This document shows, in pieces, positions 22,101 through 55,132 of a stretch of DNA of 64,000 bases. A program made the position numbers and the translations under genes. This DNA comes from Chiridota heheva (lineage: Eukaryota > Echinodermata > Holothuroidea > Apodida > Chiridotidae). Position 1 is the first letter of the stretch. Each line of letters starts with the position of its first letter. The notes below the pieces were generated by a model that saw only the letters and a list, made by a program, of their open reading frames with translations, did not search any database and was not told the origin of the DNA. The stretch is taken from assembly GCA_020152595.1 (NCBI GenBank), contig JAIGNY010000312.1, forward strand, positions 1 to 64,000. Reading direction: 5' to 3'.

Positions 22101-25100
22101 ATCTGATTCGGGAGCTAAAGATCAAAGATGGGCAACTTGGTTCATTGATGGAAGATTTCACTAACCTCTACGAGCTGAGAAAACTACACATCGGGAAGTC
22201 ACAATATACAGAGGGTGACGTCATTAAACTTTTTCAATGGGCTAAACGACAAACGAAGTTAAGAGCGATCGAGTAAGAATCTTATATATTCGTTTTATTT
22301 GTATGCAATTCTGATCCTGACCTATCCCTATAAGCTAAAATAGCTGATAATATTCTTGCAGTTTTGAGGTCAAGCATGTTTATCTGATATTAAAGAGGAC
22401 CAAACAAGGACCAACATTGTGAAAAAAAGTTTGACAGTTCAAGAAGCTATTCAAATTTAAAGTGAAAACAGATTTGTTTAGAAAATGACATATTAGCCCG
22501 AATGTAAGTGGAATCAAAGCCTAAGTTACATTTTAAGTACCAAATGTAGTTTTTTTCAAGTTATTTTTGTATTTTTGACACTTTCTTACAATACAGACAA
22601 GTGTGTCCACATAACTAATCCTGGTCCTGATCAAATTTGAATGATCAAAAAAGTTATGTTTCTTCCTTGTGAACTTTTGGTCTAATTGTAAACATGTCTA
22701 GACACTTGGGTACATTCTTATTTCTGTCTTTTCTACAGAATTCATGATGACAAGCTATTTGAACTTATTCCCTCTATAATATCACCAGAACTCGCAAATG
22801 AATGCAAAGAGGCGCAGTTTCTAGGTAGGTATTGCGCCAAATTCTCTTTCTGCAAGAGTTGTCCAATTGACCACCATTGACAGCAAGTCGCTTAACTGCT
22901 GCTTGGTTTTCTTTTACTCATCATTGCTTTTAAGTAATGTTTAAATGAATAGTATTATAGACGTCAGATATTTAATAAGGTTTTGAATGTTGAAATGTTT
23001 CTAAAAACGTTTAAGCTCGCAAAGAAGCTTTTTTTAATTTATATTATATTTTGTTTGACGTTAAAACAGTACACCTTTCATGAAAAGTGAAAAGTGATAT
23101 ATTCTTTCGTTTTATTTAAGCTAGTGCACAGCAATTATGTCAAACAATTTTATGTTGTTATGATGTGCTTCTAAAGTTGATTGTATGTTAATGTACCAAG
23201 AGATTATTTCCAAAATTAAATATCTGATAACCATCTATTTTTAAGTATTTAGAGGGCAAGATGCAAGAATGCAAGTTAATTTTAAATAAATTGATATATT
23301 CATATCCTCTTTTAGTCTTAAAGGGTGGATGTGATCCATTTAGAAACTACACCGTGGATGGCGATGTGTACTGGGAGTTTAACTTCGAAACCATGATTTG
23401 GGATAAGGTAAGCAAGCGCCTTTATGATTAGATATTTGATCTAGTACAACGTGTACAAGCCGCCTCTATCGTCTTGACATACTTCATGGTTTTAAATCGT
23501 TTATATCTGGATCTGGATACGGATGGATACTAAATTATGTAAGGAAACTTGTGGCTTATATGAATGAATGGTGTTAATAAAGAGTAACATTCAGAAATAA
23601 TTCGTGATGTTTTCACGGAAAATAAGCTCTCTATTAATTCTTATTCTCGTGAAAAATCTATATTTTCAAAGAAACGCTCAGCTTAGGTAGATAATGTCTT
23701 GCAAAATTCTGTTTACCCAATCGTCGTCATAAACAAATAATTTCTACATATTGCCCTTTTTGTTGTAGAATCACAGTTTGTTATGGTAGTTCAAGGTCTT
23801 AAACGTGCGTCCTAAAGATTTGCTTACTTCTGAAGTAAATAACGGTTTTTAGAATTGTAACATTTTCTACTCGATTTTCTCATGCAGATAGATTTTAAAC
23901 TATACTTTAAAAAGCAGTTTGATGCTAAAGCGGTAAGTTCCTCTTCCTACGTTTTCATAATACAGAACCTTTTCATCAGTAGCAGTTAGCTCACCATTTG
24001 TTTTTCTCATCAGTTTTCTTTTCTATTACTTTACTTGGTTGGTAACTTTCGTTTTCTTCTTTTGGTTATTAATGTCTAATGATATGCTATATATGTGCGT
24101 TTATGATATTTATATAAAACTACTAATACTACGTAATACAATAATATACAAATATTATTTTGTACTTATTAAGAACGTATTTGTCAATATGAAATTTAGA
24201 TTCATTGTTCGCAAGAGAAGTCCCTCGCATGCTTGTACATAAATGAAGCTAAGACTTGAAGCCTTTGTGCTACTAAAAATGAAACGAAATGTAGATGCTA
24301 AGTTATCTTAATTATTTTGTTCTCCTTAGATAACCGAAGCAACATTCTTTCTTTCTCTCATTTGCCACGAAAATTTTTCGCAGGTAAGTATGTACTAGAT
24401 AAAACAAAGTAAATTTGGGAAAATAGTGTTGTTTGCTTGAATTCACAGTCAGTTTCATCTTTATTGTATTTATTTCAGGAAAAACATGGCAACTACCTTA
24501 TCCAGCAATGGCAACATATGCAAGAAACTGGAAAGGTAATCAATACGCTTCTTTATTTCCGCTAATTCACCAGCGTTATGATTAACACACCGCCATTATG
24601 ACCATGCAATACTCTCTTTTTAGATAACAAGCGAGCATTTCATCCAAGACTGGCGTAATTGTATGAGTGTGGTAAGTGTACTTCTTAATCCAGATTCATA
24701 TCTACGTTGGAATTGCTTCAGGGAAAATTTCTTTTAGAAATAAACGTCACCAAAGTAAAATTATTGTTCTATTTTCTAAACGAACACTGAATTGAAAGTT
24801 GGGAGGATGTATTACTGTACGGTTCCTAGTATAATCGAATATCTCCCTTGTGCGCAACGGGACTTAGTATCATACTCACAATGACACTAAATCACAATAA
24901 CTCAATTTTTACGTGTATTCCCATCTGCTTTTACTTGTTTCGAATGTATTCGTTAGGCGGGTCAAGTTAAAATATAAATCCTCCTGAGCCACCGAAGGTC
25001 ACATAGGCTGGCGGGTATCCCGGTTTCCTTCTTGTGTGCGGATGAGATTACCCATCTCTCCCTGATAGGGACGACACCAGTCTATCGCAAGCTAACTCTC

Positions 25101-55132: not shown

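Follow-up and report, generated by a model that had tools for sequence, protein, structure and literature searches.

In NACHT receptors, the death effector domain (DED) recruits death-fold partners, the NACHT domain mediates oligomerisation, and sensing or restraint falls to the C-terminal repeats. We analysed a predicted receptor gene of this kind in a 64,000-nucleotide stretch of Chiridota heheva DNA (C315:1-64000, termed the window, part of a 1.10-Gb genome that was searched for paralogues), in which DED and NACHT exons are followed by a long array of candidate mini-exons, many of them exactly 54 nt in length. According to the available portion of PMC6642158, the leucine-rich repeat (LRR) exons of human NLR genes preserve the reading frame, most NOD/NLRC genes carry one 28-amino-acid (aa) LRR per exon, and NLRP3 has 171-bp LRR exons and a documented isoform without exon 5. 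Our locus resembles these genes as described there, in that it is predicted to encode a NACHT protein, its repeat exons are of fixed length and preserve the frame while most other exons do not, the junction falls at the same place in every repeat, and exon skipping would be feasible. It differs in its unit, a putative single helix of 18 aa on a 54-nt exon rather than a 28-aa LRR on an exon of 84 or 171 nt, and in having no Pfam LRR match. A first-pass annotation of this DNA had reported no known NLR with a design of one cassette per 54 nt. Because frame-preserving repeat exons are already described in NLRs, in the same portion of PMC6642158, that claim does not extend to the modular design as such; what appears new is the 54-nt unit and its repeat type. 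In the open-licence literature, a scope outside which most subscription papers fall, we found no 54-nt exon array or 18-residue helical repeat in a NACHT gene.

Four other systems share features with the locus. DED-NACHT proteins with the identical domain order occur in amphioxus, sea urchin and Nematostella, and the accessible part of PMC2575513 makes no mention of such a tail. Fibrillar collagen genes, as presented in the available text of PMC4450265, contain long 45/54-bp exon series that arose by exon addition, many exons being exactly 54 bp and thus 18 residues; our locus differs in encoding a NACHT receptor with a helix-like motif and no Gly-X-Y run. The 54-nt phase-0 pattern had itself suggested a collagen, which was excluded, as no Gly-X-Y run of five or more is present in the six frames of the window. 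Schistosoma micro-exon genes, in the excerpted account of PMC10526429, similarly have many short exons, mostly multiples of three, with long introns and a proposed role in splicing variation; in contrast, they encode secreted parasite proteins, their exons are mostly of 15 bp, and that excerpt does not mention NACHT. Dscam1 (PMC8042237 and others) is likewise an immune-linked gene with arrays of similar exons, which form mutually exclusive clusters under RNA-structure control, whereas no shared intronic element was found in the 19 upstream and 19 downstream flanks analysed here. We consider it probable that the locus encodes an NLR-type receptor with an exon-per-helix solenoid tail, built by exon duplication and spliced essentially in genomic order.

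The gene model was computed from the genomic sequence and occupies 18828-55132 of the window on the + strand, with a single chained reading frame leading into the mini-exon array. The predicted exons on either side of the array are as follows:
18828-19140, + strand: exon 1, with the start codon and the death effector domain, phase 0 to 1
20311-21890, + strand: exon 2, NACHT NTPase and adjoining downstream region, phase 1 to 0
22028-22272, + strand: exon 3, LRR-like by eye, without a Pfam match, phase 0 to 2; a 33% identical exon is present in C441
22739-22824, + strand: exon 4, phase 2 to 1, based on splice sites and frame chain
23316-23407, + strand: exon 5, phase 1 to 0, based on splice sites and frame chain
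55100-55132, + strand: terminal exon, ending in the stop codon

Exons 1 to 5 exit in phases 1, 0, 2, 1 and 0, after which every mini-exon is in phase 0 and the frame is free of stops until the final codon. With all 38 candidate mini-exons included, the full model comprises 1484 residues, with its stop at 55132 and a polyadenylation hexamer (AATAAA) beyond the terminal exon at 56191-56196. Exon 1 matched the Pfam DED with an E value of 7.9e-7 and 29.7 bits, under the curated cut-off of 35.9, and its best PDB matches were the DEDs of cFLIP (E 0.005). A single-sequence structure model of exon 1 was of low confidence (mean pLDDT 65.5); in Foldseek its top three matches were the DEDs of FADD and PEA-15 and the fourth a CARD, all at E values of at least 0.2. 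Exon 2 matched the Pfam NACHT family at E 1.8e-17, with 64.1 bits against a cut-off of 26.7, and an NLRP-type chain in PDB at E 1.4e-4. No Pfam LRR family was matched up to E 0.1 across the 1484-aa model, exons 3 and 4 being LRR-like to the eye only. The predicted product is therefore a NACHT receptor of NLR type, with an N-terminal death-fold domain whose DED match lies below the curated cut-off, and not a bona fide NACHT-LRR. The first-pass annotation had placed the DED, the NACHT and the array in one NLR; the frame and phase chain is intact through exon 5, which supports reading the locus as one NLR-type gene with a frame-preserving array. Exons 3 to 5, which lie between the NACHT exon and the array and are non-symmetric, had no place in the text of that annotation.

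The array was present where it had been described, at 23888-55132 on the + strand. We counted all open phase-0 AG...GT segments of 42-87 nt between 23.8 and 55.2 kb at one loose splice threshold, and compared these with the antisense strand and with 20 dinucleotide shuffles. The previously reported count of 21 exons of exactly 54 nt was reproduced: there were 21 such segments on the sense strand and 1 on the antisense strand, while the shuffles averaged 1.0 and never exceeded 3. The 54-nt class is thus far beyond chance. For other lengths the excess was weaker: the loose threshold gave 31 sense segments, 17 antisense and 11.8 in shuffles, and a stricter one gave 10, 2 and 1.6, respectively, these counts including nested boundaries. 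Since the candidates were searched for as phase 0-0, their uniform phase is built into the search. Independently of phase, 54 nt was the sole length clearly in excess among 36-99 nt in any frame: at the stricter sites there were 15 sense segments against 1 antisense, all 15 open in phase 0, while the same count in the first 18.7 kb of the window gave 1 and 0 on the two strands.

In total, 38 candidate mini-exons were recovered in 23888-54544, close to the approximately 37 of 42-87 nt first proposed; 21 are of 54 nt, and each is a multiple of 3 in phase 0, as had been claimed and as the search demanded. Only 27 were rated supported and 11 doubtful. The supported class consists of 20 exons of the 54-nt class, three others by motif (24624, 26635 and 40714) and four by splice score alone (23888, 24479, 35411 and 54503), the splice-score cut having been set after the scores were seen. 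A splice-scoring 51-nt segment at 31405-31455 was excluded from the 38 because it adjoins AT repeats. The candidates are listed below, where leave-one-out values give the proportion of 23,922 stop-free antisense windows scoring as high on the 18-residue motif:
23888-23932, + strand: mini-exon, 45 nt, splice score only, no motif
24330-24383, + strand: mini-exon, 54 nt, leave-one-out 2.3e-2
24479-24535, + strand: mini-exon, 57 nt, splice score only, no motif
24624-24671, + strand: mini-exon, 48 nt, motif with 0/13,285 control windows as high
25783-25836, + strand: mini-exon, 54 nt, leave-one-out 2.5e-3
26481-26534, + strand: mini-exon, 54 nt, leave-one-out 0/23,922
26635-26691, + strand: mini-exon, 57 nt, motif 7e-3 and splice score
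29138-29191, + strand: mini-exon, 54 nt, leave-one-out 0/23,922
29671-29724, + strand: mini-exon, 54 nt, leave-one-out 4.6e-4
29873-29926, + strand: mini-exon, 54 nt, leave-one-out 8e-5
30115-30192, + strand: doubtful mini-exon, 78 nt, open, splice dinucleotides only, no motif
30703-30747, + strand: doubtful mini-exon, 45 nt, open, splice dinucleotides only, no motif
35411-35479, + strand: mini-exon, 69 nt, splice score only, no motif; contains an ATG, candidate start of a separate second gene
35847-35900, + strand: mini-exon, 54 nt, leave-one-out 0/23,922, and 0/23,922 again with the 3'-group motif
36466-36552, + strand: doubtful mini-exon, 87 nt, weak or no motif
36700-36753, + strand: doubtful mini-exon, 54 nt, leave-one-out 0.24
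36808-36858, + strand: doubtful mini-exon, 51 nt, weak or no motif, preceded by an implied intron of 54 nt
37360-37401, + strand: doubtful mini-exon, 42 nt, weak or no motif
38733-38786, + strand: mini-exon, 54 nt, leave-one-out 4e-5
40714-40761, + strand: mini-exon, 48 nt, motif 3e-3
42328-42381, + strand: mini-exon, 54 nt, good splice sites, weak motif (leave-one-out 1.3e-2)
42920-43006, + strand: doubtful mini-exon, 87 nt, fails motif test
45119-45190, + strand: doubtful mini-exon, 72 nt, fails motif test
46122-46163, + strand: doubtful mini-exon, 42 nt, fails motif test
46740-46793, + strand: mini-exon, 54 nt, leave-one-out 0/23,922
47767-47820, + strand: mini-exon, 54 nt, leave-one-out 0/23,922
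48731-48784, + strand: mini-exon, 54 nt, leave-one-out 0/23,922
49080-49130, + strand: doubtful mini-exon, 51 nt, no motif
49585-49638, + strand: mini-exon, 54 nt, leave-one-out 0/23,922
49776-49829, + strand: mini-exon, 54 nt, leave-one-out 0/23,922
49992-50045, + strand: mini-exon, 54 nt, leave-one-out 0/23,922
50223-50273, + strand: doubtful mini-exon, 51 nt, no motif, 66 nt to the next candidate
50340-50393, + strand: mini-exon, 54 nt, leave-one-out 0/23,922
50779-50832, + strand: mini-exon, 54 nt, leave-one-out 0/23,922
51650-51703, + strand: mini-exon, 54 nt, leave-one-out 8e-5
53522-53575, + strand: mini-exon, 54 nt, leave-one-out 2.3e-3
53878-53931, + strand: mini-exon, 54 nt, leave-one-out 0/23,922
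54503-54544, + strand: mini-exon, 42 nt, splice score, begins IT, motif test not met (0.21)

The 54-nt exons share the 18-residue consensus I-T-x-x-x-F-I-x-E-L-R-x-L-x-x-x-x-K. When each exon was scored with the motif computed from the others, 12 of the 21 outscored all control windows, 16 fell at or below 5e-4, four more lay within 2e-3 to 2.3e-2, and 36700 reached 0.24; the later 19-exon profiles omit 36700 and 42328. The motif was matched at 1e-2 or better by 3 of the 17 candidates of other lengths (24624, 26635 and 40714 only). Among the 19 units, a hydrophobic residue occupies position 1 in 18, position 10 in all 19 and position 13 in 18, an aromatic residue occupies position 6 in 15, and a helix-cap residue (S, T, D or N) occupies position 2 in 15. 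Prolines concentrate at position 3 (six of seven) and glycines at positions 14-17 (seven of eight). Column hydrophobicity over positions 4-16 peaked at 105 degrees (p 0.017, with 0.03-0.05 for two other ranges); across all 18 positions the periodicity was not significant (p 0.26), and the hydrophobic moment of single units showed no excess. These features suggest that each exon would encode one short helix, with the intron placed in the turn.

Comparison between units (19 of the 21 exons) showed that codon position 2 was the most conserved (0.52 against 0.32 expected) and codon position 3 the least above expectation (0.32 against 0.26). Read on the predicted codons, this pattern is the mark of protein-level constraint. 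Blastn within the window found no exon-to-exon DNA similarity at E 1e-3, and, taken with the conservation of codon position 2, this indicates that the predicted protein pattern of the units has outlived their DNA pattern. Similarity of adjacent exons within the array was not significant; lag 3 gave p 0.012, as one of five lags, and was not used. As a separate observation, the introns at 48136-48244 and 49407-49516 share a stretch of about 110 bp that is 80% identical, a possible trace of local duplication.

The divergence between units also bears on whether the array is an old exon expansion in decay, in which many units are already pseudo-exons and only part is translated. Eleven of the 38 candidates have neither the motif nor strong splice sites, the introns contain tandem repeats and an inserted mobile element, and two implied introns are very short, at 54 nt before 36808 and 66 nt before 50340, and look too short for both flanking candidates to be exons. 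However, the frame is open and the splice sites are kept in 27 units, most of which also retain the motif, despite divergence that has erased DNA similarity. We therefore regard decay as very improbable.

The repeat is not clearly described by Pfam or PDB, as judged from the predicted residues. Eleven concatenated 54-nt units of the 3' block, with doubtful exons omitted, matched PAH_ZNF598 of Pfam at 29.3 bits (cut-off 25), a score that fell to 19.7 bits in the full model. No other Pfam repeat family, including TPR and HEAT, exceeded its cut-off for blocks, pairs or the whole model, and array matches in PDB reached at best E 0.046. One PDB match (E 0.046 and 0.53) was a LIM-domain protein whose 18-residue repeat is of low complexity; it was taken to match by composition and rejected. 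Searches against viral contigs found no relatives of the NACHT exon or of a 72-residue repeat block, and those against prokaryote contigs none of the NACHT exon.

We also considered a division of the locus into two genes, in which the DED-NACHT gene would end in the first cluster (23888-29926) or shortly beyond it, and a separate gene, encoding the helical repeats, would span about 35411-55132. Between the clusters lies a gap in the motif exons of about 5.9 kb (29926-35847), which holds a reverse-transcriptase element and long AT repeats, and exon 35411 contains an ATG. Against this division, the motif is common to both clusters. A motif computed from the 11 exons past 46.7 kb placed all six 5' 54-nt exons within the top 2.5% of controls (of 23,922, 1 control scored at least as high as 26481, 2 as 29138, 12 as 25783, 19 as 29873, 105 as 29671 and 581 as 24330), and 35847 and 38733 outscored every control. 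The motif from the six 5' exons alone was weaker, and 49585, 53522 and 36700 then fell among the controls. A second gene, in C2750, likewise has a DED and a NACHT exon followed by such an array. These results make two separate genes improbable.

The genome contained 73 NACHT matches, the window's own included, and downstream DNA was examined for five of the other 72 (C2750, C2078, C826, C441 and C3573). The nearest matches after the window's own were C441, with 59% identity in the core, and C2750, with 45%. A DED search at E 0.01 or better recovered the window gene, C441 and C2750, together with C1767 and C3429. In C2750 the DED exon is 30% identical to that of the window (E 3e-9) and the NACHT exon 40% identical over 546 columns. 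Downstream are 16 sense candidates of 54 nt against 3 antisense, and 66 against 49 of other lengths; within the initial 50 kb, 11 of the 54-nt candidates reach a motif score of 5, compared with none antisense. Thirteen of the 16 were scored against controls, 47392 and two others being left out. With a motif trained on the window only, 11 of the 16 had at most 7 of 24,006 controls as high, six of these having none; 27174, with 282 of the 24,006 at or above it, and 40658 did not match. The left-out 47392 had already failed by its motif score of -14.6.

After 40658 had been dropped from the collinearity, helix-mark and codon-position comparisons, 11 of the 12 scored C2750 units carried a cap residue at position 2. 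Codon-position conservation between window and C2750 units repeated the pattern seen within the window, at 0.34, 0.51 and 0.33, with 0.30 expected at position 2 and 0.26 at position 3; collinearity of the two arrays was not significant. C441 is 42.5% identical in the DED and 54% in the NACHT exon, in addition to the exon 3 match, and its contig ends about 3 kb past the NACHT exon. No motif exons were found downstream of the distant NACHT paralogues C2078, C826 and C3573, in about 48, 49 and 39 kb, respectively. From these predicted exons, the array looks like a trait of an NLR subfamily, shared by two or more genes of a single DED-NACHT group, and because of this second occurrence chance or the misreading of a single locus hardly explains it.

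Separately, both arrays have an 87-nt, disordered-looking exon candidate before their best 54-nt block (at about 1,028,900 in C2750 and at 42920-43006 in the window), which might be a linker. A genome-wide search for the DNA pattern IT...FI..[DE]L gave 13 matches, one being the window's own exon, against 17 for the reversed pattern, and thus no excess; a tighter pattern matched nothing but exon 50779 of the window, with 0 for the control. One of the 13 matches, at C1398:14422-14452 on the - strand, reads AG|ITPQQFIEEL, a near-perfect unit start, and may mark a third array.

We propose a receptor in which the DED, for signalling, and the NACHT NTPase are followed by a short degenerate-LRR-looking stretch and a long C-terminal tail made mostly of 18-residue units. 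Each unit would pass from a hydrophobic start and a helix-capping T, S, N or D into one short amphipathic helix and then a K/G-rich turn. Some 20-40 such helices, packed unit against neighbouring unit, may form an alpha-helical solenoid, which would serve as a sensor or scaffold instead of a long LRR. The tail would have grown through tandem exon duplication, and most helices would have their own 54-nt phase-0 exon because of this. With one exon per helix and phase-0 introns, unequal exchange could add or remove a single helix while keeping the frame, and variation would arise mainly through the gain or loss of exons in the germ line, while an exon may occasionally be skipped.

Alternatively, much as the first-pass annotation had suggested, frame-neutral cassettes could be included or left out in many combinations, so that receptors would vary somatically or between tissues, as in Dscam1. 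Every array exon is symmetric (phase 0-0), unlike any of exons 1 to 5; the accessible text of PMC6642158 reports the same contrast for the LRR exons of human NLRs, which have splice variants. The units are alike enough that the loss of one might be tolerated, and weaker donors, in the 84th-91st percentile, occur at 4 of the 19 54-nt exons that carry the motif. The other 15, however, have strong donors, which rank in the 95th percentile or higher among GTs of the window. Of the exact k-mers of 7-10 nt in intronic flanks of about 110-120 nt, none was shared by the 19 upstream or the 19 downstream flanks more than in shuffles, a test that covers neither longer-range nor diverged elements. The 54-bp exon series of collagens are moreover spliced constitutively. 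That such series make up collagen genes is described in the available part of PMC4450265. On this evidence, combinatorial splicing seems unlikely. A broader proposal, that a DED-NACHT subfamily swapped its LRR sensor for a new 18-residue helical repeat with one helix per 54-nt exon, and splices the frame-neutral array into many tails as an adaptive-like repertoire without DNA rearrangement, is likewise unlikely.

If the exon-per-helix tail is translated as predicted, it would give NACHT receptors a new kind of sensor domain and would be a clear example of an immune gene in which each structural element has its own exon. Whether the splicing of frame-neutral cassettes diversifies invertebrate intracellular receptors, or such arrays merely ease germ-line exon gain and loss, is now a testable question, and the two diverged array genes within one genome offer a comparison.

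Several other features were noted in the window, in which Rfam and tRNA scans found nothing. Reverse-transcriptase frames at 32390-33467 and 33729-34196 (RVT_1 E 1.7e-5, below cut-off, for one piece and no match for the other), followed by a GIY-YIG-like frame, sit inside the largest array intron; we read these frames as a Penelope-like element. A 35-bp tandem repeat of 38 copies (97% matches) lies between two mini-exons at 39314-40637, a 239-bp tandem repeat of 2.4 copies lies in the DED-NACHT intron at 19247-19815, and three copies of a 125-bp unit occupy 55459-55830, in the presumed 3' untranslated region. A broken reading frame at about 62030-62690 is WD40-like by eye, with no convincing Pfam match. 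Past the polyadenylation hexamer, a 111-nt exon-like phase-0 segment at 56321-56431 (PIYMRIIPELQKYDCTSNEFINLHCLASPIITHSNFK), without a Pfam match, could be an alternative 3' exon.

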